Translations under genes and position numbers: made by a program | Shown here: piece by piece, positions 18,496-56,268 of the stretch | Layout: every line of letters begins with the position of its first letter | Position numbering within the stretch: the stretch's first letter is position 1 | The notes under the pieces: generated by a model | The model's input: only the letters and a program-made list of their open reading frames with translations | Told to the model about the DNA's origin: nothing | Database searches by the model: none | Source: Luteolibacter flavescens | GTDB lineage: Bacteria; Verrucomicrobiota; Verrucomicrobiia; Verrucomicrobiales; Akkermansiaceae | Length of the DNA: 64,000 nucleotides | Direction of reading: 5' to 3' | Assembly (NCBI RefSeq): GCF_025950085.1 | Contig: NZ_JAPDDS010000002.1 | Span: 310,001 to 374,000 of the forward strand

Positions 18496-18809
18496 TCCGG
18501 GGTGGCGGCGGGGGAGGCGATCGCTTCCTCCGCGCCGATGCACCAAATCCGCCAGTGATGCATTGGCTCGGTCTCTATACACAACCTCGTCGAGGTAGGA
18601 TGAGCCGACGTGCAAACCCCGGGTAGCTCGTGCCTCGCAACCCGGGGCTTTGGTGCGAAGTCCCCTTGGGACAGTGGAAGAGCCGCGCAGCACTTTCGCC
18701 GCCGTGCGGCTCCTTGACAGCGACGCGGTCGGGAAATTGCATGTCGACGGAACGTCGACACTCCATATGGCCGCTACGCGGCTTCCTGTGGGGACGGCTG
18801 TGCCGCCCC
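18496..18809. other. Structured intergenic region with hairpins
   Basis: No gene is seen in these 314 bases between the converging DUF2339 and lysC genes. Two hairpins are visible: CCCCGGGT ... ACCCGGGG at 18617-18647, and an AGCCGCGC ... GTGCGGCT pair near 18680-18710. Neither has a long T run. They may be transcript ends or part of a dispersed repeat. Confidence 0.5.
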
Positions 18810-42205: not shown

Positions 42206-42793
42206 GGCGGGAGGGTTGAGCGTAGGCGCACTGGTGACAGTGCGGAATTGGCGAGTGAAGCGGGCTTGCTTGGATGAAGCTCGGCTTCCTTCGGGGAGCT
42301 CCGCAAAGACACCGGCTTTCTTCAGGGCCAAAGGCCCGGCTATCCCTCAGCCCGGGCCAACGGCCCGGGTCTCCCCGTCCCGATGCATTTGGCGGCCTGA
42401 AGGGACGCGATACCGGGCTGGGATGCACATGATTTACGGGCTCATCCCGACCGTCAGAATCCAATCGACAGATTCCGCTAGGCGATGGTCCGTTCTTTGA
42501 CCGGTGAGGCGGGCCGTCATCCCTATCGCGGCCCTTCAGGCCGCCGACTATGCTGCTATCCCTTTCCCGGGCCGATGGCCCGGGCTGAGGGATGGCCGGG
42601 CCTTTGGCCCTGAAGAACCGGCTGTGGGCCCTGGGTGCATTCGTCAGGTTATAGGAACCACACCATTGCTGGCTGCCGCCGCCCTGATGACAGTGTCAGT
42701 GGGTAGAGGTGGTAGGTGAGGAGGGCTTCTCCCGTGGTATCGCCACCACGACCACGAAGGGATACTTGGAGCGTGCTCCGCGGGCGCGGAAAC
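42206..42793. other. Intergenic region holding a REP-like element
   Basis: No gene is evident in these 588 bases. The centre is a 300-base inverted element (42318-42617). The right flank (42640-42790) contains only short G-rich sequence. Confidence 0.6.
42318..42617. repeat. REP/BIME-like inverted element, copy A
   Basis: The ends are inverted repeats of about 50 bp (TTCTTCAGGGCCAAAGG at left, CCTTTGGCCCTGAAGAA at right). Each arm contains short palindromes: GGGCCAAAGGCCC, a CCCGGGCC/GGCCCGGG pair, and GGCGGCCTGAAGG near its inner end. The central 100-odd bases are unique. No transposase is encoded. A second copy lies at 55814-56137. Confidence 0.85.
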
Positions 42794-43810
42794 TCACAGC
42801 TCCAGCATGTGCGCGACGTGGGCGGCGGTGAGTTCGCCCATGGTGCGGCAGTCGCGGAAGATGTCCGTGTGGTGATACTTGGCGAGGTCCGCCGCGAGCG
42901 AGGCGACGTGTTCGCGCGGGGCGAGTTCCTCGCGCCGCATCACGCCGAGCAGCGCTTTCATCCGCGTGCTCTCGACCTTGGCGCGGCGGGTCATCTGCGC
43001 GTGCTCCTCGGCCACGTACTGGTCGATGGTCTTGCGGTTCAGCACGTCGAAGGCGAGCTTGGTCACCGTCTTGTTAGAGTCGAAGCGGTACGCCAGGTAA
43101 ATCTTCCCGCGGCGCTCGTAGCTCTGCTGGTCGAAGTCGATCGGGCGCACGCGGTACTGCACTTCCTCGAAGTCCGGCGTGATGTCCACGACGTAGTTCA
43201 CGCTCCGCATGTCGCCGAGCAGGCGGATGAAGCAGCGCTCGTTGAACTTGGTGAACTCCTTCGCGATGCGGACTTTGTTCAGCTCCGGGCGCGGCAGGTG
43301 ATCGCGCAGGAAGACATCCCCCGGCACGCCTGCGATGTGTTCCTCGATCAAGGTGTTCCCGTTGACGAGGTAGTTGATGCGGTTCGGCGAGAGGATGTGC
43401 TCCAGCTCCAGGCCGTAGATGCGCGAGGCGTCCGCCTGCTTCACGTAGAAGTAGTCGGAGTTATCGTTGTACAGGTTCGTGATGCGGATGCGGAAGGGCC
43501 GCGAATTTCCGAACTCGCCGAAGTCGATGCGGTCCACGGTGAGGTGCTCGTGGAGGTCGCTTTCGCCGCCGATCTTCAGCTCGGCGTAGATCTTCGTCAG
43601 CTTCGGCCGCAACTCCAGCATCAGCTCCTGGGGGTAGAAGACGGTGAGCCACAGCGTCTCCTTCCCGCGCGGATCTTCATACGGCATCGAGCCGGCGAAG
43701 CGCGTGAGGTCGTCATAGACCAGCGGGATATCGCGCAGGCGGTCGAAGTGATAGAGGTATTGCCTCAGGGTGGGAGAGACGGAGTACTTGATCTTGCGGC
43801 GTGAGATCAC
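42794..43810 (-). CDS. Protein of unknown function
   Basis: A 338 aa soluble protein with an even mix of charged and hydrophobic residues and no signal peptide, membrane helix or catalytic motif that I recognise. It contains YHFDRLRDIPLVYDDLTRF near the N-terminus, a central PYEDP-GKETLWLTVFYP segment and a FERCFIRLLGDMRSVNYVVD-like core (NERCFIRLLGD). Codon use is clearly coding. GTG 43810 is taken as start because it begins the conserved-looking part (VISRRKIKYSV); the minus frame extends upstream to 44326 as the shadow of coaC. It is divergent from coaC with 132 bases between. Confidence 0.7.
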   Translation of the reverse strand: MISRRKIKYSVSPTLRQYLYHFDRLRDIPLVYDDLTRFAGSMPYEDPRGKETLWLTVFYPQELMLELRPKLTKIYAELKIGGESDLHEHLTVDRIDFGEFGNSRPFRIRITNLYNDNSDYFYVKQADASRIYGLELEHILSPNRINYLVNGNTLIEEHIAGVPGDVFLRDHLPRPELNKVRIAKEFTKFNERCFIRLLGDMRSVNYVVDITPDFEEVQYRVRPIDFDQQSYERRGKIYLAYRFDSNKTVTKLAFDVLNRKTIDQYVAEEHAQMTRRAKVESTRMKALLGVMRREELAPREHVASLAADLAKYHHTDIFRDCRTMGELTAAHVAHMLEL

Positions 43811-43942
43811 CCGGCGAGGATGGGCTTCCGGCGGGAAAAGGCGAAGGCTGAACTTTGTCGGTAGGACGACCACGGCGGACCGTGCGGGCTGTCCTGCATA
43901 TTCGGTGTTGGCAGTTCTCCGTCCGGTGCTCCTATTTCCCGC

Positions 43943-44479
43943 ATGACCATCGTCCTCGGCATCACCGGCTCGATCGCTGCCTACAAGGCGGCGGACCTGG
44001 CGTCCCAGCTTGTGAAAGCGGGGCACGAGGTGCATGCGGTCATGACCCGCGCTGCCACGGAATTCATCACGCCGCTCACGCTGCAGGTACTCACGCGCCA
44101 GCCCGTGCTGGTGACGCTGGAGGATGAAAAGCAGAGCTGGAAGCCGGGGCACATCGAGCTGGCGGACTCGGCGGACCTCTTCCTTGTCGCACCCGCGAGC
44201 GCGGACGTGATCGGGAATTTCGCCAATGGCCTCGCGCCTGACCCTCTCTCCTCGATCTACCTCGCCCTGCCGCGCACCACGCCGGTGATCATCGCCCCGG
44301 CCATGAATGGCAAGATGTGGCTGCATCCCGCCGTGCAGCGGAATGTCGCGCGACTCGGCGAGGACGGCTGCCGCTTCATCGGCCCGGCGGAGGGAGACCT
44401 TGCGTGTGGATACCAGGGCATCGGTCGCATGTCCCCGGTCGAGGAAGTTTTGGCTGCCGCTTTGGCCATCGGAAAATAA
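43943..44479 (+). CDS. coaC: Phosphopantothenoylcysteine decarboxylase (CoaC only)
   Basis: A 178 aa flavoprotein. Motifs: ITGSIAAYKAADL at the N-terminus, VAPASADVIGNFANG, PAMNGKMWLHPAVQRN (the conserved Asn-Met), and ACGYQGIGRM, the substrate-binding flap. It decarboxylates 4'-phosphopantothenoyl-cysteine to phosphopantetheine in CoA synthesis. Most bacteria fuse CoaC to CoaB; here the frame ends right after the decarboxylase and no CoaB follows, so the synthetase must be elsewhere. ATG 43943. Confidence 0.92.
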   Translation: MTIVLGITGSIAAYKAADLASQLVKAGHEVHAVMTRAATEFITPLTLQVLTRQPVLVTLEDEKQSWKPGHIELADSADLFLVAPASADVIGNFANGLAPDPLSSIYLALPRTTPVIIAPAMNGKMWLHPAVQRNVARLGEDGCRFIGPAEGDLACGYQGIGRMSPVEEVLAAALAIGK

Positions 44480-45024
44480 CGGCCTGTTGGAGCCGCGCCC
44501 GGTGTTATATTGCCGGGTGATATGGATGCTAACTTTGGGTATGTATGCGACGCTTTGATCGGCGGAATCATCCCCATCGGAAAAGTTGCGAAAAAATCAC
44601 ACGCTTGGTTTTGGTCCGAGGGTTGATCTTCGCTTTAGCGCAATCCATTGATGGAAAGTGAATTGAGGGATCGATTGTGCGCTTCGAAAAAGCCGCGTGT
44701 CGTAATCCTACGCAAAGCAAACCGATCAATACAAGAAACCTGATCGGGACGATTTAGACTGTGGGAAGGTTCGATCCCCGTTTTTCCCGGCACCCATGTC
44801 CAAACCCAAAGAGGACAGCCGGAGGCGGGGTCGATGCCGACAAACCCGAATCCATCGAAACCCAATAAACCCGCACATGCACGGCGGGGCATTTGTTCGC
44901 CTCGTCGCGCCTTCCCGGAAGGCGATCCATACAGCCGCTCCATAGCCGGTATCATATGCCGGAGACTGGTGAGCCGGACAGACCCATGTCTTTCCTGAAG
45001 GCGGGATTACGTACTCAGAACCCC
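44480..45024. other. Leader region upstream of the first giant protein, no gene seen
   Basis: Roughly 545 bases, AT-richer than surrounding DNA between about 44500 and 44760. It should hold the promoter and a long 5' leader for the gene at 45025. A T-loop-like GGTTCGATCC near 44768 is not part of a tRNA. No Shine-Dalgarno precedes the ATG (AACCCCATG). Confidence 0.5.
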
Positions 45025-48000
45025 ATGAAAATCCCTCGGCCACACTCCCGTGGCAACCTGATCGAGACCGCATTCGGTCTGGGTTGCCTCTTCGCCACGG
45101 CCATCCCCGCCGCCCATGCCGCATCCGATACCTGGACGGGCAGCGGTGGAAACAACCTCTGGCAAACTCCGGGCAACTGGACCTCCGCGACGCAATTCCC
45201 CGGCGCGGCAGCCAATGATTTCACCAGCGCGGATGACGCCAGCTTCGGCGCGGCTGGCTCCGGTGCCGTGGACCTGGGCTCCACGCTGAATGTCCGCACG
45301 ATCCTCTTCGGCATCTCCGGCGGGAATGCCTCCGTCTTCACCATCGGCGATGCGAATGACACGCTGAACCTCTCCACCGCGGGCGGCGTGACGGTGAATG
45401 CCGGTGTCACCACCGCGCAGCAGGTCAGCTCGGCCGGTGGCTCGATTCATCTTTCCACCGCCGCGAATTCCACGGTGACGCTGACGAACAATGGCAGCGG
45501 CCTGCTCACCGTGGCAGGCAGCGTGGTGGCCGTGCCGCCCGCCGCTTCGAATAGCCTGCTGGCCGTCGGCGGCTCGGGAAATGTCGCGATCACCGGGGCC
45601 ATCACCGAGACCGGGGACGGCGGCTCGGCACTGCTGAAGACGGGCACCGGCACGCTCACGCTTTCGAATGGCGGTACCTTCACCGGTGCCGGGGCCATCG
45701 GCTACATGCCCGCCACCCCGGCCGGCTATCCGCTCGTCGTCCGCGAGGGCACGCTGCGCCTGAATGGCGGCGCGCATGCCGTGGATACCGAGCTGGTCAT
45801 CGGCGGCGTGGTCACGAATGGCGGCGCGGGCCAGAATGCAAAGGTGCAGGTGGACGCGGGCACGCTCAGCGTCGGCTCGTGGCTTTCCATCGGCCGCGGC
45901 AATGGCACCGGCACCGTCTCCTCAGACCTCGTCATCAGCAATGCGGGCGCGGTGACGACCGCCAGCCTCAGCGGCGGCTTCAATGGCGGCAACGCGGCGA
46001 ACCTCGTGAAGGGCTCCGTCACCATCAATGACACCGGCACCCTCACCGTCACCGGCAACAACGCGAACTACAACTGGGGCGAGAGTCCCGGGTCGGTTTT
46101 CACGATGACGCTGAACGGTTCCTCGAAGCTCATCCACAATGGCAATGCCTCCGGCACCCGCATCGGTGAAGGCGGCACGGGCATCCTCGACATCGCCAGC
46201 GCGAATGCCACGGCGGACGTGCGGAACCTCATCATCGGGCGCGGCACGAATGCCATCGGCGCGGTTTACAACAAGGGCACGCTCAAGTCCGTGGGGCAGG
46301 ACGGCCTCTTCCTCGGCGATGGCGGCGGCAGCGTCAGCTACTTCCGGAACGACAATGGCGCGGCGACCGTGCCGAATGACAATGCCGCGAACATCGTGGC
46401 GGGCATCGGCGCGAATTCGAACTCGGTCGTCGATGTGATCAGCGGCACCATCACCGCCACGCGTGTGGCGGCCTGCTGTTTCAACAACAACGCGAACAAC
46501 GGGCAGTTCAACGTCACGGGCGGCACGCTCGGTGCGGGCGCGACCGGCTTCGTCCTCGCCGACACGAATGCCCGCACCGGGGCGAAGTGGGCGAACGTGA
46601 ATGTCACCGGCACCGGCGTCTTCCAGAGCACCGGCCCGGTGAACCTCTCGAATCCGAACCTGGCGGGGAATGTCACCGTCTTCGCCATCGCGAACGGTGG
46701 TACGCTCTCCGTGGACACCATCTCCAGCACGGGTCCGAACAGCGAGGGGTACCTTCATTTCAACAACGGCACGCTGCGCGCGAACAGCGCCACCACCGCC
46801 CAGATCGCCACGCCGAATGTCGATCGCATCACCGTCCACTCCGGCGGCATGACGATCGATACGAATGGCTTCAACAAGACGATGGCGGCGCAGGTCGCGA
46901 GCCCGGTCGCGGACGGCACCGCCACCTTCGGCGTCACCGGCATCTCGGTCAGCGGCACGGGCACCGGCTACAAGGGCCGCCCGGTCGTGAAGATCACCGG
47001 TGGCGGCGGCACGGGTGCCGCGGCCATGGCTACCTACGATGTCGTCACCGGCCAGGTCACCGGCGTCACCGTGACCAGCCCCGGCACCGGCTACACCAGC
47101 GCGCCCACCGTCTCCATTCTGGGTGGTGGGGGCACGGCCATCACGGCCACCGCCACCATCGGCGCGGCGGCTGGAGGATCGCTGACGAAGGCGGGCGCGG
47201 GCACGCTTACGTGGAATGGCGCTCACGCATTCACCGGTCCCATCATCGTCACGGGCGGCGAGCTTGCCACCGGCGGCAGCCACACCGGCAGCCCGCTCAC
47301 CATCCAGAGCGGCGGCCGCGTGAATGTGGTGGATACCGCCGGAGCGGTCGGCTCGCTCACCGTCGGCACGCTCACGCTGAGCAGCGGCTCGCTCCTCACG
47401 CTCGAGACCGGCGCGGGGAATACCGCGGACAAGATCGTCTGCACCGGCGGCTCGCACGGCACCGTGGCCATCTCGCTCTATGACAGCGGCACCACGAATC
47501 CCGCGCTACCCGGCACCTACACGCTCATCCAGTACAGCGGCAGCTTCACCGGAGGCGTCACCGGCCTGTCCATCGCGAACCAGCGCCCAGGTTTCAACTA
47601 CACCTTCCACGATACCGGCACCGCCATCACCGTGGACGTGATTTCGGTGGATGCGGACGGCGACGGCATGTCCGACTCGTATGAGATCGCGAACGGCCTG
47701 AACCCGAATGACGCCACCGGCGTCAATGGCGCGAATGGCAATCTCGACGGCGACTTCGCCACGAACTACGAGGAATTCCTCGCGGGCACGCAGGCGAACA
47801 ACCCCGCCTCCGATCCGATGAACGTGGACAACGACGGCCTGCGCGACAGTTGGGAGATCACCCACTTCGGCAGCATCGCCACGCAGAATGGCACCGATGA
47901 TTCCGACGGCGACTTCGACTCGAACCTGATGGAATTCACCGCGGGCACGCTGCCGGCGAATGCGGGCAGCTTCAGCGACACCGATGCGGACGGCCTCGGC

Positions 48001-50628
48001 GATGGCTGGGAGATCCTGTATTTCGGAAACATCGCGGCGAAGAACGGCACGGTGGATTCGGACGGCGACCTCTTCACCGACCTGCAGGAATACAAGTATG
48101 GCTCGGTTCCGACCGACTCCTCGCATTCGCCCGCCTTCGCGAAGGCGGCGCACCGCTGGAGCTTCACGAACAGCCTGAACGACTCCGTCGGGACCAGCCA
48201 CGCCACCATCGAGAACGGCGCGACCAGCAACACCAATCCCGTGACGCTGAATGCCACGAACGTGAAATTCACCGGCGGCGCGAAGGCCGATTCGCAGTGG
48301 GTGAAGCTGGGTGCGAACCTGCTGCCCGCGCACAATACCCCGGTCACCATCGAGCTGTGGGCGACGATGGATGCCTTGCAGAACTGGGCTCGCATCTTCG
48401 ACTTCCACAGCGGTGCCACCGAGAATCTCTTCATGAGCTGGAGCCAAGGCGTCACCGCGGCGACGGACCGTGTCGAGTGGCGGGACAATGCCGTATTCAC
48501 GACGAACAACACCAACAACTGGATCGTCGGCACCAAGTATCACATCGTCATGACCATCGAGCCCGCGCCCGTGGCCGGCAGCTCCGTGGTGAAGTGGTAC
48601 TCCGCACCGATGTATGACGGGGAGTCCTACCTGGACCTCGGCCCGCCGCGCGGCACCGCCACCGTGGCAAACGCCATCGGCATGATGAATGACACCATCA
48701 ATGCCCTCGGCCACTCGCCCTACAATGACAATGCTCCCAGCGCGACCTACGACGAGGTCCGCATCTGGAACGGCGTCATGCGCGAGTGGGCGCTGGAGTC
48801 CCTCTACGAGCAGGGCCCGGACAATGCCGCTCAGGCCGACTCCGATAATGACAAGCTGCCCGACTCCTACGAGCGCTACTACTTCAACGGCCTCGCCCAG
48901 ACGCCGAACGGCGACTACGACGGCGACCTGAGCAGCAACATCGAGGAGCTCTACGCCGGCAGCAATCCCGCCGACGCCACCTCCAGCCCGAATGACTCGG
49001 ACGCAGACGGACTGCCGGACGCGTGGGAGATGGGTTACTTCAACGACCTCGATGAAAACGGCGGCGGCGATCCCGATGGCGACCGTGCGACGAATGCCGA
49101 GGAACTCGCGGCCGGGACGGCTCCGATGCTCTACACGTCCTTCCCGGACAGCGACAACGACGGCATGTCCGACGGCTGGGAGCTGTATTACGTGGGCAAC
49201 CTGAGCAATTCCGGCACCGGCGATACCGACGGGGACGGCTTCAACCTGCTCCAGGAATTCGTCCAGCGGGGCGCTCCGGATGATCCGCTCTCACCCGGCG
49301 TGGCCGATGGCGACGCCGACAATGACGGGCTGCCCGACCGCTGGGAGGTCGCGTGGTTCGGCCCCACCACCATCGCCTCGCAGAATGGTACCGACGACAC
49401 GGACGGCGACGGCTTCAACAACCTCGCGGAATACCAGGCCACGTCCGATCCGACGCTGTCCGTCTTCACGCCGACCGATATCAATGGCGACGGCGCGGTG
49501 GACCAGCACGTCTTCCACGGCATGACGGCCGCGGGCACCGGCCTGCGTGACAAGGACGGCCAGGCGACCGCATTCACCACCCGTCTCGGTGGGACAGGAG
49601 CGTCCATCCCGACGAATGATCCGAACCTCGATCTGGACACCGCCGCCGGGACGCTGGCGATGACCACCGCATCCGCGGATGTGAATGGCCAGGTGAACAT
49701 GGCGCAGTTCGAGGCGATCGGCATCCCGCTTTCCTCGCTCGGCTTCACGGCTGCGCAGGACTTCCGGATCCGTGCGCACTATGTGAATCTGCCGGCGCTC
49801 GCGGGCTACGACCAGATCGGCGCCTGGGTGGGCACCAGCAGCACGGCCATGACGCGTGCCTCCGCCATCGGTGCGGGCTACGCCGCGCTCGGGGTGAATA
49901 CGAATGCCGCCACGGATGCGAATGCGTTCTTCGGTGCGGGCGGGACTGCCGGTGCCGCTGGCCGCGACCTCACCGTCATCATTGAGCGCATCGGTGGGAA
50001 TTGGTCGATGAGCTGCAATGGGAATCCATGCAGCCCCACCGCCCAGCCCGCCTTCCTGAATGGCCTCGGCAATCTCCAGGCCGGTGTCTTCGTCCTCGAC
50101 CAGGACACGCACAAGACCGTGGCGCTGGAGAGCTTCACCGCCGTCAGCTTCGGCACCGCCTCCACCGGCGGTGATGCGGACAATGACGGGATGGATGATG
50201 CCTGGGAGACCGCGAATCTCGGCGGCACCACCCGGGACGGCACCGGCGACCTGGATAATGACGGCGTGATCGACCTGCTTGAGTTCGCCTTCAATGGCGG
50301 GGCGAACAACGGATCGTCACGCGGCCAGATCACCAGCGCGCTCGCCGATACAAATGCGAATGGCCAGAAGGAGCTCACGCTCACCATCGCCACCCGCATC
50401 GGGGCGGTCTTCACCGCGCAGCCCGACGGTAGCCAGCAGGCCACAGTCGGCGGCCTCACCTACCGGGTCCGCGGATCGCTGAATCTGACGAGCTTCACCA
50501 GCGCGGTGGCGCACGTCTCCACGGCTGCGGCCACGGATCCCGCCTACGAGCTCCACACCTTCCGCCTCACGGCATCGGAGGGTCTGGGGGGCAAGGGCTT
50601 CCTCCGTGCCGAGGCCACGCATCCGTAG
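45025..50628 (+). CDS. Giant secreted beta-helix/TSP3/LamG surface protein
   Basis: An 1867 aa protein. Signal peptide about 1-32 (AHA). Residues about 37-870 are autotransporter-associated beta-strand repeats (repeated TGxGTLTLS, LxxxGxGTLTW turns). Asp-rich TSP3-like calcium-binding segments follow (DADGDGMSDSYEIANGLNP and others, about 873-1037), then a LamG-like domain (about 1040-1270, AHRWSFTNSLNDS...), more TSP3 segments (to about 1485), another jelly-roll domain, and a C-terminal module (about 1716-1867). No autotransporter beta-barrel. Predicted calcium-dependent adhesin or matrix protein. It ends with a strong terminator. Function inferred from architecture only. Confidence 0.85.
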   Translation: MKIPRPHSRGNLIETAFGLGCLFATAIPAAHAASDTWTGSGGNNLWQTPGNWTSATQFPGAAANDFTSADDASFGAAGSGAVDLGSTLNVRTILFGISGGNASVFTIGDANDTLNLSTAGGVTVNAGVTTAQQVSSAGGSIHLSTAANSTVTLTNNGSGLLTVAGSVVAVPPAASNSLLAVGGSGNVAITGAITETGDGGSALLKTGTGTLTLSNGGTFTGAGAIGYMPATPAGYPLVVREGTLRLNGGAHAVDTELVIGGVVTNGGAGQNAKVQVDAGTLSVGSWLSIGRGNGTGTVSSDLVISNAGAVTTASLSGGFNGGNAANLVKGSVTINDTGTLTVTGNNANYNWGESPGSVFTMTLNGSSKLIHNGNASGTRIGEGGTGILDIASANATADVRNLIIGRGTNAIGAVYNKGTLKSVGQDGLFLGDGGGSVSYFRNDNGAATVPNDNAANIVAGIGANSNSVVDVISGTITATRVAACCFNNNANNGQFNVTGGTLGAGATGFVLADTNARTGAKWANVNVTGTGVFQSTGPVNLSNPNLAGNVTVFAIANGGTLSVDTISSTGPNSEGYLHFNNGTLRANSATTAQIATPNVDRITVHSGGMTIDTNGFNKTMAAQVASPVADGTATFGVTGISVSGTGTGYKGRPVVKITGGGGTGAAAMATYDVVTGQVTGVTVTSPGTGYTSAPTVSILGGGGTAITATATIGAAAGGSLTKAGAGTLTWNGAHAFTGPIIVTGGELATGGSHTGSPLTIQSGGRVNVVDTAGAVGSLTVGTLTLSSGSLLTLETGAGNTADKIVCTGGSHGTVAISLYDSGTTNPALPGTYTLIQYSGSFTGGVTGLSIANQRPGFNYTFHDTGTAITVDVISVDADGDGMSDSYEIANGLNPNDATGVNGANGNLDGDFATNYEEFLAGTQANNPASDPMNVDNDGLRDSWEITHFGSIATQNGTDDSDGDFDSNLMEFTAGTLPANAGSFSDTDADGLGDGWEILYFGNIAAKNGTVDSDGDLFTDLQEYKYGSVPTDSSHSPAFAKAAHRWSFTNSLNDSVGTSHATIENGATSNTNPVTLNATNVKFTGGAKADSQWVKLGANLLPAHNTPVTIELWATMDALQNWARIFDFHSGATENLFMSWSQGVTAATDRVEWRDNAVFTTNNTNNWIVGTKYHIVMTIEPAPVAGSSVVKWYSAPMYDGESYLDLGPPRGTATVANAIGMMNDTINALGHSPYNDNAPSATYDEVRIWNGVMREWALESLYEQGPDNAAQADSDNDKLPDSYERYYFNGLAQTPNGDYDGDLSSNIEELYAGSNPADATSSPNDSDADGLPDAWEMGYFNDLDENGGGDPDGDRATNAEELAAGTAPMLYTSFPDSDNDGMSDGWELYYVGNLSNSGTGDTDGDGFNLLQEFVQRGAPDDPLSPGVADGDADNDGLPDRWEVAWFGPTTIASQNGTDDTDGDGFNNLAEYQATSDPTLSVFTPTDINGDGAVDQHVFHGMTAAGTGLRDKDGQATAFTTRLGGTGASIPTNDPNLDLDTAAGTLAMTTASADVNGQVNMAQFEAIGIPLSSLGFTAAQDFRIRAHYVNLPALAGYDQIGAWVGTSSTAMTRASAIGAGYAALGVNTNAATDANAFFGAGGTAGAAGRDLTVIIERIGGNWSMSCNGNPCSPTAQPAFLNGLGNLQAGVFVLDQDTHKTVALESFTAVSFGTASTGGDADNDGMDDAWETANLGGTTRDGTGDLDNDGVIDLLEFAFNGGANNGSSRGQITSALADTNANGQKELTLTIATRIGAVFTAQPDGSQQATVGGLTYRVRGSLNLTSFTSAVAHVSTAAATDPAYELHTFRLTASEGLGGKGFLRAEATHP

Positions 50629-50970
50629 TTTTCTAGGGTTCAGGGTCCACAAGTCAGCCGCGTCCGCCGTTCCGGTGGGCGCGGCTTTTTCGTGCGGAGT
50701 CATGGGGGAGTTGTGGCGACCGGGCACCGGTTAGCCGCCATGGCAAAGAATTTTGTTCCAAAACAAAACGGATTTGTTATTCCAAATTTTACCGGGTCGG
50801 GCGGAGTCGCGCGCGTCCCGGCCGAACCCGACCCAAAACCCACAAGCGACCCCGCCCCGGCACTTTCCACCGGGGACAAAAACCCGAGCCGATCCGCGGC
50901 TGCCTCACCCAAGTGGCAGTCCCATCGTCCGGACAGGTGTGTACTTGTATGCAACTCGCTCGAAAAACCC
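50629..50970. other. Spacer with terminator and leader
   Basis: These 342 bases contain the terminator of the preceding gene and then an A-rich stretch (50740-50800) followed by a C-rich leader into ATG 50971. No gene is seen. Confidence 0.6.
50656..50690 (+). terminator. Strong rho-independent terminator after the first giant gene
   Basis: Thirteen-bp stem with two G-U pairs (AGCCGCGTCCGCC with GGTGGGCGCGGCT), a 5-base loop and a run of T. It ends about 60 bases after the stop. Confidence 0.9.
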
Positions 50971-53900
50971 ATGAAAACCCCGACCCGAATCCTTCCCACC
51001 TCCCGTGAGTCGCTCCTCACCACGGCCTCCTGCCATGCCCGCTGGTACGCCAGCGTGATCGCGGGCACGGCCATGCTCGGCTCCTCCGCCTTCGCGGCGG
51101 ATTGGCTGGGCGTCACCGACAACTGGAACGACGCGGCCAATTGGAATCCCACGGGCATCCCGGCGGCTCCCGTGGATGCGAATGTGAATCTCGCCACCGC
51201 CGGTCATTTCCCCGTGCTCCTCACGAATGCGACGAATGACCCGCGCAACGTGAACGTGGGCATCGGCGCGGGCATCTCCGGCCGCATCGACCTGCGGACG
51301 GGCCGGATCATTGCCACGAACCGCATCATCATCGGCGATGACGGCGGCACCGGGACGCTCAATATCGCGGACACCTCGGTGCCCGTCACCGACCCGGCGA
51401 AATTCACGCCATGGGGCCAGAGCGGCGAGGGGCCGAAGCTCCAGGTGGGCGAGCGCCTCTACATCGGTGGCCAGGGTGCGCCCGCGGGCGCGGCCAATGG
51501 CGTGGCGAACGTGAACACCCTCGGCTCGGTCCAGGTGACCGGCCACATCGTCGTGGGCGAAGGCAATGCCGGCGGCGGCGTCCTGAACGTGGACTCCGGC
51601 ACCATCACCACCACCGGCGGTGAGCTGTGGGTCGGCCAGGCTAGCGGCGGCGTCGGCAAGCTGAACATGTCCGGCGGCGCCATCAACGTGAACAACAACT
51701 GGGTGGCCATTGGTCGCAACGGCGGCAATGGCGCGGTGCTCATGACCGGCGGCGCGATCACCAAGGCGGGCAACGGCGACTTCCTCATCGGCACCGACCC
51801 GGGCGGCACGGGCGTCATCGAGATGCGCGCCGGCACCATCAATGTGAACGGCGGGAACACCGCCGTCGGCGATCGGAACAACACCGGCGCGGCCCCGGGT
51901 ACGCCGAGCACCGCCTTTGGCACGCTCAAGTTCCCCACCGGCAGCACCGCCACCTTCACGGTGAATGCGGGCAACCTGGTCGTCGGACGGCTGCGCGACA
52001 GCGTCGGCGGCGCGGGGGTGCTGGAGATGTCGTCTTCCACCGCGACCCTCACATGCCTCACCACGCGGAACATCCACGTCGGAAACGGCAATACGTCCCG
52101 TGGAACGGTGAACCTCAGCGACGGCACCATCAACGTGAACGACTGGTTCGTCTTCGGTCGCGAGAGTGGCCAGGGCACCCTGAATATGACCGGCGGCAAG
52201 ATCGTGAAGACCGGCGGCGGCAACCTCGCGCTCGGCGCGCTGGGCACGAATGCGAAGGGCACCGTGAACCTTTCCGGCGGCCTCATCGACATCCAGTCGG
52301 GAGCCGTCCTCATCGCCGAGGCGGGCACGACCCCGGAGGGCACCTTCAATATCTCCCTCAATGGCGAGCTGCGGGTGGGCACCTTCGGCGTGGGTGTGAA
52401 TGGCTCCGGCACCGGCTACGCGAATCTGGATGGGGGTACGCTCCGCACCCAGGTCATCGATGGTGGCGCGGGCACCGCGCACGTGGACTTCAATGGCACG
52501 CAGATCATCGCCACGGCGAACCGCGCGGACTTCATCAATGACCTCGACAGCGCCGACGTGGAACCCGGCGGCCTGAAGGTGAACAGCAACGGCTTCACCC
52601 TCTCCACCTCGCAGAACCTGCTGAATGCAGGCGGCGGCGTGGTGAAGAGCGGCGCGGGCGTGCTGAACCTGAATGGCACGAATGCCTACGCCGGTCCCTC
52701 GACCGTGGAAGGCGGCACGCTGAACGTGAATACCACCGCCACCGGCGGCGGTGCCTACACGGTGAATGGCGGTGCCGTCCTCGGGGTGACCCAGGCCACC
52801 GACACCGGCGTGCTGAATGTCTCCAATCTCACGATGAACGATGGCAGCACGCTGAACATCTCGATGGCAGCCGCAGCCGCCAATCCGGCGTCCGCTCCCG
52901 TGAATGTGACCGGCACGCTCACCACCACCGGCACGGTGACCATCAATCTGACCGACGCCGATCCCGCCGTGGGCACCTTGCGGCTGGTCTCCTACGCGGG
53001 CGGCTCCGGCGCGAATTTCGTGCTCGGAACCATCCCGGAAGGCGTCACGGCGACGCTGGTGAATTCCGGTGGCCTGGTCTCGCTGGATGTGACGCGCGTG
53101 AATTCGCCGCACTGGATCGGCGACCTCAGCGGCGTGTGGGACACCACCACGCTGAACTGGCGGAATTCCTTCACGGGAAATGCCACCAACTTCGCGAATG
53201 GGGATCCTGCACTCTTCGAGGACCTCACCGTCTTCCCGTCGTCATTCAATGTTACTCTCGACGTCACGGTCTCTCCGGGCAGTACGGGTGTCACCTTTGA
53301 CAATATCACGAACTTCTCGCTGACCTCGCCGTCCAATCTCGGAAAGATCAGCGGCACGAAGGGCCTCACGAAGCGTGGCGCGGCCGACCTGACCATCGGC
53401 AACCTGCAGAACGACTTCACCGGTCCCGTCCGTCTGGAAGGCGGCATCACCTCCGTCGGCCAGCTTGCAAATGCCGGCAGCCCCAGCCCGCTCGGCGCGG
53501 GGAATCTGGTGCTGGCAGGTGGAACGCTCCTCTACACCGGCTCCTCGGTGACAATCGACCGCGGCCTGCAAGTGGCAGCCTCGGCGAACAACATCACCTC
53601 GCAGCTTTCCGTGGAGAAGGCCGCGACGAACCTGACCGTCAGCGGCGCGATCAATGCGACGCTCGGCGGCTTCGTGAAGTCCGGCCTGGGCACGCTGACG
53701 CTGACGAATCCCGGCGCGAACGTGCTTGGAAACGGCACCACCCCCGCGGCGGGCGTCAGCGAGGGCGCGCTGGTCCTGACCGGCGGCGGCACGCAGACGA
53801 ACCAGGTGCAGGGCGGCGAGTTCTGGCTCGGCACCTCCGGCGCCGCGGGTGCATCGCTGACCATGACGGGCAGCTCGATGACTGGCACCTCGTGGTTCGT

Positions 53901-55641
53901 GATGAGCCGCGGCAATAGCACCACGAATCTCTTGTCCACCCTTGAGGCGACGAATTCCACACTGACCTTCGCCAATGCGACCTTCGGCTACGCGAGCACG
54001 CTGACAGGCTACACGTCCACGTCGGAGGTGAAGCTGACGGATTCCACCTTCAGCACCGGGACGGGCACGCTCTACTTCGGCGAAAGCGGCGGGGCCACCA
54101 CGAACGTCACGATCATGGGGAACTCGACCATCATTGCAGGTCCCTTCCAGCTCGGACGTAATGCCGGATCGGTCGGCAAGATCGACCAGAACGGCGGCAC
54201 CGTCACCGCGGGTGACAACAACGACGGCGTCCGCATCGGCGGCACCGGCACCGGCACCTGGAACCTGAATGCAGGCACGGTGAATGCGAACGGCTGGAAC
54301 GTCCTCGGACGCTTCGCGGGCAGTGTCGGCGTGCTGAATGTCGCGGGCGGCACCTTCAACCAATCGCAGGCGGACCGCGCGATGATCGTGGCCGAGCTCG
54401 GTACCGGCACCGTGAACATCACCGGCTCCGGCACGGTGAATCTCACGGCCAATGGCGGTCTCTTCATCACGAATGGCACCGGCAGCGTGGGCACCGTGAA
54501 CCTGGATGGCGGCACCCTCACCACGAAGCGCATCCGCGAGGGAGCGGGCAATGTGGGAGCGGGCACCTTCAACTTCAACGGCGGCATGCTCATCGCCGCG
54601 GCAGCGTCGGATGGACCGCTCTTCATGGAGGGCCTCGACTTCGCGTATGTGAAGGCAGGCGGCGCGAACATCGACACGAATGCCCAGACCATCTCCATCA
54701 ACCAGCCGCTGCTCGCAGGCACCCCGGCATCCGGCGGACTGACGAAGGCGGGCACCGGCACGCTGCGGCTGAATGGTGTGAATACCTACACGGGCACGAC
54801 GACGGTCGCGACCGGCAGCCTGGGTGGCACCGGCACCATCGCCGGGCCCATCGCGGTGCAGTCCGGCGCGAGCCTCGCGCCTGGTGCTGCCACGGGCACG
54901 TTGACCGCCAGCGGCGGCGTGACCTTCAGCTCCGGAGCGATCTTCTCCGTGACCATCGATGACAGCCAGGTGGCGGACAATGGCCGCCTGGACGCGACCG
55001 GCACGCTCGATGTGACCGGCGTGGCGTTGCAGGTGAATCTGGTCGGCACCGCCGGTCAGCCCACCTACACCATCGCCACGGCCGGCACCGTCACCGGCAC
55101 CTTCGCCTCGGTCCCGGCCGGTGTGAATGTGACCTACGGGGCAAACAGCATCACCATCACCCCGCCATCCGGCACGCCGTTCCAGTCATGGATCAGCGGC
55201 TTCAGCGTGGGCGCGCTGAATCAGCCCGGCGATGATGCGGATGGCGACGGCCTGACGAACCGGGAGGAATTCGCACTTGATGGCGATCCTTCCAAGGGTG
55301 CCGCATCCGGCAAGGTCCGCTCGCGGATCGAGACTGTGGGCGGCGAGCAAGCGCTGGTCATCACCCTGCCGGTGCGTGCCGGTGCCACCTTTGACAACAA
55401 CCCGGGCCCCGGCCTGGACGCGACGCTTGTGGCGGATGACCTCGTGTATCTCATCCGCGGGTCGAACAACCTGCAGGCCTTCGACCAGGGCGTGACCGAG
55501 GTGACACCTGCCAGCGCTGCCGGCATGCCGCCTCTCAGCGACGCAACGAAGTGGACGTATCGCACCTTCCGCCTGAATGGAGCGATCCCGACTCGCGGCG
55601 CGAAGGGCTTCCTGGACATCGAGATCCAGGACGCACCGTGA
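50971..55641 (+). CDS. Giant secreted beta-helix protein with TSP3-type C-terminal module
   Basis: A 1556 aa protein. A long signal peptide (about 1-42, ends SAFA) is followed by DNWNDAANWNPTGIP, the usual start of such proteins, and by beta-helix repeats (LxIGxxGGTGTLN, NMTGGxI, GTVNLSGG). A second W-D-T-T-T-L-N-W block near 725 restarts the pattern, then strand repeats (GSGTLTLTN-like) to about 1410. The end (about 1419-1556) is DDADGDGLTNREEFALDGDP plus a beta module. Collinear with the gene at 58218 throughout, and nearly identical over the last 140 residues. No translocator barrel. Surface or exported matrix role inferred. Confidence 0.85.
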   Translation: MKTPTRILPTSRESLLTTASCHARWYASVIAGTAMLGSSAFAADWLGVTDNWNDAANWNPTGIPAAPVDANVNLATAGHFPVLLTNATNDPRNVNVGIGAGISGRIDLRTGRIIATNRIIIGDDGGTGTLNIADTSVPVTDPAKFTPWGQSGEGPKLQVGERLYIGGQGAPAGAANGVANVNTLGSVQVTGHIVVGEGNAGGGVLNVDSGTITTTGGELWVGQASGGVGKLNMSGGAINVNNNWVAIGRNGGNGAVLMTGGAITKAGNGDFLIGTDPGGTGVIEMRAGTINVNGGNTAVGDRNNTGAAPGTPSTAFGTLKFPTGSTATFTVNAGNLVVGRLRDSVGGAGVLEMSSSTATLTCLTTRNIHVGNGNTSRGTVNLSDGTINVNDWFVFGRESGQGTLNMTGGKIVKTGGGNLALGALGTNAKGTVNLSGGLIDIQSGAVLIAEAGTTPEGTFNISLNGELRVGTFGVGVNGSGTGYANLDGGTLRTQVIDGGAGTAHVDFNGTQIIATANRADFINDLDSADVEPGGLKVNSNGFTLSTSQNLLNAGGGVVKSGAGVLNLNGTNAYAGPSTVEGGTLNVNTTATGGGAYTVNGGAVLGVTQATDTGVLNVSNLTMNDGSTLNISMAAAAANPASAPVNVTGTLTTTGTVTINLTDADPAVGTLRLVSYAGGSGANFVLGTIPEGVTATLVNSGGLVSLDVTRVNSPHWIGDLSGVWDTTTLNWRNSFTGNATNFANGDPALFEDLTVFPSSFNVTLDVTVSPGSTGVTFDNITNFSLTSPSNLGKISGTKGLTKRGAADLTIGNLQNDFTGPVRLEGGITSVGQLANAGSPSPLGAGNLVLAGGTLLYTGSSVTIDRGLQVAASANNITSQLSVEKAATNLTVSGAINATLGGFVKSGLGTLTLTNPGANVLGNGTTPAAGVSEGALVLTGGGTQTNQVQGGEFWLGTSGAAGASLTMTGSSMTGTSWFVMSRGNSTTNLLSTLEATNSTLTFANATFGYASTLTGYTSTSEVKLTDSTFSTGTGTLYFGESGGATTNVTIMGNSTIIAGPFQLGRNAGSVGKIDQNGGTVTAGDNNDGVRIGGTGTGTWNLNAGTVNANGWNVLGRFAGSVGVLNVAGGTFNQSQADRAMIVAELGTGTVNITGSGTVNLTANGGLFITNGTGSVGTVNLDGGTLTTKRIREGAGNVGAGTFNFNGGMLIAAAASDGPLFMEGLDFAYVKAGGANIDTNAQTISINQPLLAGTPASGGLTKAGTGTLRLNGVNTYTGTTTVATGSLGGTGTIAGPIAVQSGASLAPGAATGTLTASGGVTFSSGAIFSVTIDDSQVADNGRLDATGTLDVTGVALQVNLVGTAGQPTYTIATAGTVTGTFASVPAGVNVTYGANSITITPPSGTPFQSWISGFSVGALNQPGDDADGDGLTNREEFALDGDPSKGAASGKVRSRIETVGGEQALVITLPVRAGATFDNNPGPGLDATLVADDLVYLIRGSNNLQAFDQGVTEVTPASAAGMPPLSDATKWTYRTFRLNGAIPTRGAKGFLDIEIQDAP

Positions 55642-55664
55642 GCCACGGTCTCATCTGAAAATCG

Positions 55665-55702
55665 GAAACCCCGGTCGCCATCCTGCGGCCGGGGTTTCTT
55701 TC
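55665..55702 (+). terminator. Rho-independent terminator after the second giant gene
   Basis: Perfect 10-bp stem GAAACCCCGG / CCGGGGTTTC with a 14-base loop and a short T run, beginning 24 bases after the stop. Confidence 0.85.
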
Positions 55703-55813
55703 GGGATGGCCTTTGGGTCGGGTGGATTTTGCCGATGGCAAATGGTTGCGACCGCTGAAGGGATACGCGCTGCAAAGAACACGACCGACGTGTGGCCCGT
55801 GCGCTTGCCCTTG

Positions 55814-56137
55814 TCTTCAGGGCCAACGGCCCGCCCATCCCTCAGCCCGGGCCATCGGCCCGGGCCATCGGCCCGGGTGAGTGATTCGGCGAGAGCAGGC
55901 GGCCTGTAGGGCCGCGATACGGGAGCGGCATGCGCGGGATTTATTGATCCATCTTGTCCGGAGAGCCCGACCAACAGATCTGACCAGGCGACCGCTCTTC
56001 AGGTTGTGATCTTCTCACCGCTTTCGCGAGGCGGATCGTCATCCCTATCGCGGCCCTTCAGGCCGCCGATCTGGCAGTGCTGGTTACCCGGGCCGATGGC
56101 CCGGGCTGAGGGATGGCCGGGCCTTTGGCCCTGAAGA
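55814..56137. repeat. REP/BIME-like inverted element, copy B
   Basis: Same family as the element at 42318-42617. The left arm starts TCTTCAGGGCC, the right arm ends GGCCCTGAAGA; GGCGGCCTGTAGGGCC and CGCGGCCCTTCAGGCC are the inner inverted partners. The left arm contains a tandem duplication of the CCCGGGCCATCGG unit. The centre differs from copy A, so only the arms are conserved. No open frame for a transposase. Confidence 0.85.
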
Positions 56138-56143
56138 ATCCCA

Positions 56144-56268
56144 CCGCCTTCCGCCTTCCGCCTTCCGCCTTCCGCCTTCCGCCTTCCGCCTTCCGCCTTC
56201 CGCCTTCCGATTTCCGATTTCCGATTTCCGATTTCCGATTTCCGATTTCCGATTTCCGATTTCCGATC
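56144..56268. repeat. Heptanucleotide tandem repeat: 9 x CCGCCTT then 8 x CCGATTT
   Basis: Nine perfect CCGCCTT units (56144-56206) are followed by eight perfect CCGATTT units (56207-56262) and a degenerate partial unit. The tract starts 6 bases after REP-like element B and ends about 65 bases before the halogenase start. Seventeen units of 7 bases shift the frame unless changed in multiples of three. Confidence 0.95.

Follow-up and report, generated by a model that had tools for sequence, protein, structure and literature searches.

Head-to-head pairs of a triple-hairpin repeat unit in Luteolibacter flavescens and their probable cognate Y1 transposase

Repetitive extragenic palindromic (REP) sequences are intergenic palindromic repeats that often stand in inverted pairs, known as REP doublets forming hairpins (REPINs) or bacterial interspersed mosaic elements (BIMEs), and are cognate to a low-copy gene for a Y1 transposase of the HUH type, the class-2 TnpAREP or REP-associated tyrosine transposase (RAYT), which is flanked by the same repeats. 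Here we analyse two elements of about 300 nt in a 64,000-nt stretch of the Luteolibacter flavescens genome (contig NZ_JAPDDS010000002.1, positions 310,001 to 374,000; hereafter the window), which belong to a system that resembles the RAYT/REPIN way of working but uses a transposase of another subclass and a repeat unit that is composite. The HUH Y1 core of the enzyme, and the same-oriented hairpins with a short guide-like stretch alongside, are also found in the IS200/IS605 family (IS608, ISDra2), whose ends have no terminal inverted repeats. At these ends the guide is located on the 5' side of the hairpin (PMC8266576).

Two further descriptions are close to this locus. In TIRtrons, as here, a tyrosine transposase gene lies inside long inverted repeats; the sections consulted describe some of these repeats as self-complementary or double palindromic and some families as occurring in dimers or clusters (Di Nocera et al. 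2013, PMC3733652), and genes flanked in this general manner are therefore already known. Among the 26 published TIRtron transposases (TIR-associated tyrosine transposases, TIRYTs), 20 are placed in subclass 2.1, six in 2.2 and 2.5, and none in 1.2, in the relevant portion of the classification (Quentin et al. 2018, PMC6006769). The passages of the same paper on TnpAY1 subclass 1.2 give it a length of ~148 aa, the motifs DH[IV]H, WQ and Y---Q--HH, a C-terminal tail and a low copy number, list no REP for it, state that typical secondary structures are generally missing from its termini, and locate it mostly in Cyanobacteria and Bacteroidetes (PMC6006769).

The two window elements are gene-less pairs of a composite unit of ~95 nt, which is probably the repeat cognate to an IS200-like Y1 HUH transposase of the subclass-1.2 type encoded at C22:42398-42847 (C numbers denote contigs); what is said below on movement, cleavage sites and strand is what we infer from this arrangement. 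In each element one such unit, with three hairpins (H1, H2, H3), occurs twice, head to head, as follows.

42318..42617, unstranded: element 1, head-to-head triple-hairpin pair, type A/A, with diverged centre
42325..42337, plus strand: element 1 left unit H1, GGGCC-AAA-GGCCC
42351..42369, plus strand: element 1 left unit H2, CCCGGGCC-AAC-GGCCCGGG
42392..42408, plus strand: element 1 left unit H3, GCGGCCTGAAGGGACGC, with one unpaired position, then tail GATA
42528..42544, minus strand: element 1 right unit H3
42566..42584, minus strand: element 1 right unit H2
42598..42610, minus strand: element 1 right unit H1
55814..56137, unstranded: element 2, head-to-head triple-hairpin pair, type A/A
55820..55832, plus strand: element 2 left unit H1
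55846..55878, plus strand: element 2 left unit H2, with an internal 13-nt duplication
55899..55915, plus strand: element 2 left unit H3
56050..56066, minus strand: element 2 right unit H3
56087..56105, minus strand: element 2 right unit H2
56119..56131, minus strand: element 2 right unit H1

A preliminary description of this DNA had reported two elements with inverted ends of about 50 bp and further inner inverted palindromes, and both are present where it placed them, with outer arms of 51-52 nt and inner arms of 22-25 nt. The outer arms of element 1 (42318-42369 / 42566-42617) are 52 nt long and 96% complementary and its inner arms (42391-42412 / 42524-42545) 22 nt and 95%; the corresponding values for element 2 are 51 nt and 96% (55814-55864 / 56087-56137) and 25 nt and 92% (55898-55922 / 56043-56067). 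The centres, which had been called unrelated, are better described as diverged: the two elements align almost end to end, at 72%, and the alignment of element 1 to a further element at C8:116956 gives 77%.

Searching the own genome with element 1 returned at least 137 high-scoring segment pairs (40 of 69 candidates were scored, making the copy number a lower bound), and the repeat is therefore not a chance resemblance. The window and 26 fetched loci together hold 84 units, arranged as 37 head-to-head pairs, one of them gene-carrying, and 10 singles; three of 87 nhmmer hits were left out of this count (two on C2, overlapping or partial, and one partial on C4). A covariance model (R1) built on 40 of the 84 units gave at least 86 matches across the whole genome, again a lower bound, with 111 of 7953 candidates scored. 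Two main types of unit end, A and B, are told apart by paired changes within H2 (CCCGGG and CCCCGG), and by these the pairs divide into 12 A/A, 18 A/B in either order, three B/B and four that the script left unclassified. The preliminary description had suggested looking for arm copies genome-wide and for a tnpA inside the same arms, and had named as contrary outcomes a lack of further copies or their confinement to a single segmental duplication. Neither outcome was found, since 84 units exist and one pair encloses a Y1 transposase gene; the 37 pairs are spread over 13 contigs and include similar elements with dissimilar flanks. Segmental duplication was accordingly rejected as an account of the whole family, since likeness between elements does not always extend to their flanks: several element pairs are 0.85-0.88 alike (for example C4:301629 with C26:9269), with flank scores below the 95th percentile of the null (66). 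Flanks are shared at a few elements (C22:24639, C26:8030, C28:2539 and C4:52167), which may be part of larger duplications. A possible identity as integron attC sites was likewise considered, and was dropped when a Y1 gene turned up between the same ends; the analysis included no search for an integrase.

Aligning 40 own units gives a consensus made up of H1 (GGGCC-AAA-GGCCC), a 13-nt stretch (GGCCATCCCTCAG), H2 (CCCGGGCC-ATC-GGCCCGGG), ~22 variable bases, H3 (GCGGCCT-GAA-GGGCCGC) and GATA. The hairpins are supported by compensatory changes, a signal that is lost when the structure is slid along the alignment (covariation score 0.149 vs 0.010-0.016). Nine of the 20 base pairs are altered on both sides while 98.0% of cells pair, and there are 33 compensatory-change cells vs 7.8 in shuffles, with none of 500 shuffles as high for the cells, the altered pairs or the share of cells that pair. 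Just outside the units there is a weak preference for TCCG (at most 0.46 bits per position), for which we claim no target motif.

Three Y1_Tnp genes were found in the own genome by search. The gene at C22:42398-42847 (150 aa; open reading frame (ORF) L031:3399-3851) sits between inverted units of the window's family at C22:42192 and 42956, forming a gene-carrying element of 765 nt that is followed by a gene-less pair of 318 nt; it is the one gene-carrying copy found for this unit family. At C22:41982-43392, a divergent unit doublet stands on both sides of this copy as a direct repeat with a period of ~880 nt, and the region looks like what a tandem duplication of the transposase element would leave after loss of the gene from one copy. 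The other two Y1 proteins are 57% and 45% identical to the cognate transposase, and their genes stand between units of other kinds with a similar layout; these units recur elsewhere, the gene-flanking ones apart, as six +/- pairs of 198-238 nt and five singles, one of the singles lying in the window near 18583-18673.

The cognate transposase carries DHVH, HWQ and YIAGQAEHH (Y---Q--HH) and a C-terminal tail whose conservation was judged among relatives rather than against a published profile. D54, H55, H57, W95, Q96, Y115 and Q119 are invariant in all 22 aligned proteins and the HH is almost invariant (L068, L073, L086, L090, L091 and L093-L096 are absent from this alignment, and L066/L067 duplicate L069/L097). 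The three own Y1 genes score 64.1, 59.5 and 56.3 bits with the NCBIfam model transpos_IS200 (cut-off 55), the highest value being that of the cognate enzyme. Solved structures related to it by sequence include the IS608 transposase (2vhg) and 2xm3, which we take to be the ISDra2 transposase. By its motifs and length the enzyme has the features listed for TnpAY1 subclass 1.2 and is putatively of that type: its 150 aa are close to the listed length, it shares DHVH, WQ, Y---Q--HH and the C-terminal tail, and the genome holds three Y1 genes.

The same comparison sets the system apart from each of its neighbours. Unlike the subclass as described in 2018, its ends are composite hairpins and its units are amplified, as is also seen in records of other phyla; the flanking hairpin units thus contradict the description of subclass 1.2, not its motif definition. 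Among the open-access papers listed, judged by titles and the starts of abstracts, none was found on composite hairpin units for this subclass. The Y---Q--HH motif separates the enzyme from the published TIRYTs, which the consulted part of the classification places in TnpAY1 class 2 (PMC6006769). GGGGWSAS, common in published TIRYT repeats, occurs in one of 40 own units (either strand) and in eight of the 148 flanks (260 nt each) taken from the wider set of loci described below, and the sections on TIRtrons consulted hold no description of a triple-hairpin unit with shared H1/H3 tails (PMC3733652). In contrast to IS200/IS605 elements, the gene lies inside inverted composite units and gene-less units far outnumber the single gene-carrying copy found; the high-copy, almost identical gene-carrying copies of that family (subclass 1.1) are not seen here.

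Units matching those of the window occur in 11 of 38 relatives by BLAST and in 28 of 38 by the covariance model at E <= 0.001, where the matches may take in other unit families. The genome G007 has 59 model matches, the most among the 17 genus relatives searched, and encodes an 80% identical transposase between same-family units at C5:404297-404390 and 404922-405014. One site could be followed between genomes. The genes flanking the element at C4:195629 (locus L042) are adjacent in five of seven relatives searched (G003, G006, G007, G009 and G010), with a gap of 91-296 nt vs 525-548 in the own genome, and no unit is present in the orthologous spacers of G006, G007, G009 and G010, the four that were read. 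This shows presence and absence of the unit at one orthologous site, for which insertion in the own lineage is likelier than loss elsewhere. For the L048 locus, no syntenic flanks were seen. To the right of the element in L042 (C4:195629-195893) stands a terminator-like hairpin that is, by eye, almost identical to the element's unusual left H2, and the two look as if sequence had been exchanged between them.

Units of similar build flank relatives of the transposase in several bacterial phyla. Genome contigs were scanned with the protein alignment and the best 80 of 573 relatives were kept; these loci lean towards the query, come mostly from metagenome-assembled genomes whose labels may be wrong, and carry the labels Verrucomicrobia, Planctomycetes, Acidobacteria, Bacteroidetes and others, with none labelled Cyanobacteria. 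We compared 260 nt upstream of each gene with the reverse complement of 260 nt downstream, using 260 within-locus controls, in 74 usable loci (six of the 80 were dropped for short flanks). Inversion between the flanks exceeded the 99th percentile of the controls in 57 of 74 loci. DHxH, WQ and Y---Q--HH were all present in 71 of the 74, and in 55 of the 57 proteins from loci positive in the flank test. In many of these positive loci the flank reads H1, a spacer of 9-13 nt usually ending in AG, H2, a linker and H3. A triple-hairpin parse at a score of at least 18 was obtained for 70 of 148 flanks vs none of 296 shuffled flanks, and at a score of 20 for 59 of 148, representing 43 loci on at least one side; the AG count among these (54/59) is biased upward, because the parser rewards spacers ending in AG.

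Within parsed units the tails of H1 and H3 are more alike than expected (4.06 vs 3.07, sd 0.13; none of 5000 permutations as high) across 51 units from 38 loci, eight of the 59 having been dropped for a spacer not ending in AG or a short tail. We therefore read H1 and H3 as two same-oriented guide-hairpin modules. In Flavipsychrobacter stenotrophus (Bacteroidota), the gene-flanking unit has 41 matches in its own genome, whereas searches of two other Bacteroidota genomes gave none. The 33 fetched loci, aligned and inspected by eye, have a sharp edge at H1, ~14 nt conserved past H3 and unrelated flanks beyond. Only the two gene-flanking copies among the 41 hits are head-to-head neighbours less than 1 kb apart, and one further neighbour pair has the same orientation; since the copies are mostly single, it is the unit that forms the repeating module in that genome and not the pair.

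Such an arrangement suggests how the system may work. The transposase would bind the unit as folded single-stranded DNA, and on one strand each unit would present two guide-plus-hairpin modules, H3 and H1, in the same orientation and with a similar tail. By analogy, these may correspond to the two subterminal hairpins of IS200/IS605 ends, which they resemble, with H2 as the hairpin between. Cleavage beside the H1 and H3 modules would allow single units or head-to-head pairs to be moved to new intergenic sites, probably during replication, and gene-less units would be mobilised in trans. The head-to-head pair state would then be the local counterpart of REPINs and BIMEs.

A broader proposal can be made only tentatively, and we hold it with somewhat less than even confidence: subclass-1.2 HUH transposases may form a separate, widespread REP-like system over several phyla with a composite triple-hairpin substrate, in which the ~90-nt unit is a minimal IS200-like element with the same-oriented H1/H3 guide-hairpins as its ends, multiplying singly in some hosts, Flavipsychrobacter among them, and as head-to-head pairs in others such as the present one. 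If true, it would be an independent parallel to REPIN evolution, the REP-like life of IS200-type enzymes having arisen with another enzyme class and a different composite repeat, and such a system would be present in records of Verrucomicrobia, Planctomycetes, Acidobacteria and Bacteroidetes. The little-studied subclass 1.2, described without a cognate repeat, would gain a proposed substrate, a defined folded unit of ~95 nt per enzyme with two candidate guide stretches.

Several observations weigh against a transposase-driven repeat of this kind. Model matches occur without any transposase match in G004, G011, G014, G023 and G029 (2, 3, 7, 5 and 3 matches, respectively), and G009 has 37 model matches, yet the best transposase there has 55% identity and lies between units of another type. 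At C4:195629 neither a target-site duplication nor an exact empty site is readable, the spacer being too diverged, and for element 1 an exact empty site is not readable either, the flanking genes lying far apart or on different contigs where both could be placed. Across phyla, the flank test is not passed by 17 of 74 loci, only 43 of 74 pass when flanks from other loci, with which hairpin sequence is shared, serve as controls, and a parse on both sides at a score of 20 was reached in 16 of 74. Tail similarity and transposase similarity are weakly correlated (Mantel rho 0.06 and 0.10, reached or exceeded in 191 and 81 of 2000 permutations). Head-to-head pairing is not a general trait, given the mostly single copies in Flavipsychrobacter. 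Recent activity is not evident in the own genome, because the pairwise identity of the 36 short elements (the 765-nt gene-carrying element left out) has a median of 0.67 and reaches 0.93 at most.

Among other explanations, one that we consider unlikely is that these are structured elements with a host function, such as transcription terminators or RNA-stability hairpins, kept by selection and flanking the transposase gene incidentally. The strong G+C hairpins with compensatory changes, the intergenic position of both window copies and the terminator-like hairpin adjoining one element, with its likeness to that element's H2, would all suit such a role. It does not account for the recurrence of inverted flanks at related genes in 57 of 74 loci, nor for the element missing from the orthologous site in relatives; in addition, an Rfam scan of the window gave no family at the gathering score, which counts against described RNAs only.

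We regard as quite improbable that the elements are classical REPs or BIMEs (REPINs) moved by a class-2 TnpAREP, as the preliminary description had proposed. What stands of that proposal is its general form: the units are multi-copy, palindromic, intergenic and paired in inverted orientation, and flank a Y1 gene, so that the REP-like trait of a multi-copy repeat flanking its cognate tnpA is present; GTAG-tagged hairpins also exist beside four elements. The REP nature of the units and the class-2 identity of the enzyme are not supported. None of the 40 aligned own units has a GT[AG]G foot (three hairpins, both sides), and GTAG/GTGG is missing from all 54 parsed units across phyla at the offsets scanned, 0-2 nt past H1 and H3. 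In place of the single hairpin in 20-40 nt that the consulted descriptions give for a REP (PMC3733652, PMC6006769), the unit has three in ~95 nt. The transposase belongs to another class by motif and model score, reaching 24.5 bits with the REP_Tyr_transpos model against a cut-off of 80, and no class-2 RAYT was seen among the three Y1 genes found in the own genome, because all three carry Y---Q--HH and not Y---NP.

Equally improbable is an ordinary miniature inverted-repeat transposable element (MITE), the 300-nt pair being one element with long terminal inverted repeats moved double-stranded by a DDE or other transposase: the long inverted ends, the lack of a gene and the 765-nt gene-carrying copy alongside gene-less ones of ~300 nt fit it, but that copy encodes an HUH Y1 enzyme, a unit of like build is repeated singly in another phylum, the hairpins within the unit carry compensatory changes, and no target-site duplication was noticed in element flanks inspected by eye and not systematically, while no search aimed at a DDE gene with such ends was made.

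The window also holds two features associated with this system or its relatives.

18583..18673, minus strand: solo unit of a second family in this genome, similar to the unit beside the Y1 gene G000:C3:349615-350067 (BLAST match 18616-18673, remainder by eye)
56144..56267, unstranded: array of heptamers adjoining element 2 at its outer edge

The preliminary description placed one of the elements beside a heptamer array, and element 2 does adjoin this one, which begins at 56144, the element ending at 56137. Period-7 tandem arrays, GGARRNS-like and varied, stand at unit edges on C4, C5, C22 and C26, and such arrays reach several contig ends too. They occur within 10 nt of eight of the 84 unit outer edges (random-position mean 1.03, maximum 6) and within 70 nt of 14 (mean 2.18, maximum 9; 2000 draws in the same loci in both cases). 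The association is real in these data.

The GTAG-tagged hairpins mentioned above have a GTGA loop and are canonical-REP-like. They lie at window 42222-42255, L045:3028 (minus strand), L049:2942 (plus strand) and L055:3855 (minus strand), all four within ~120 nt of an element edge; three shuffles gave none, the scan covering 254 kb picked for holding units.

Both window elements sit in spacers, as had been described. Element 1 has an alpha/beta-hydrolase ORF on one side and an ORF without a Pfam match on the other, and element 2 a passenger-associated transport repeat (PATR) ORF and a tryptophan-halogenase-like ORF. The PATR-repeat ORF is large (window 50692-55641), resembles an autotransporter passenger and contains many degenerate internal repeats.

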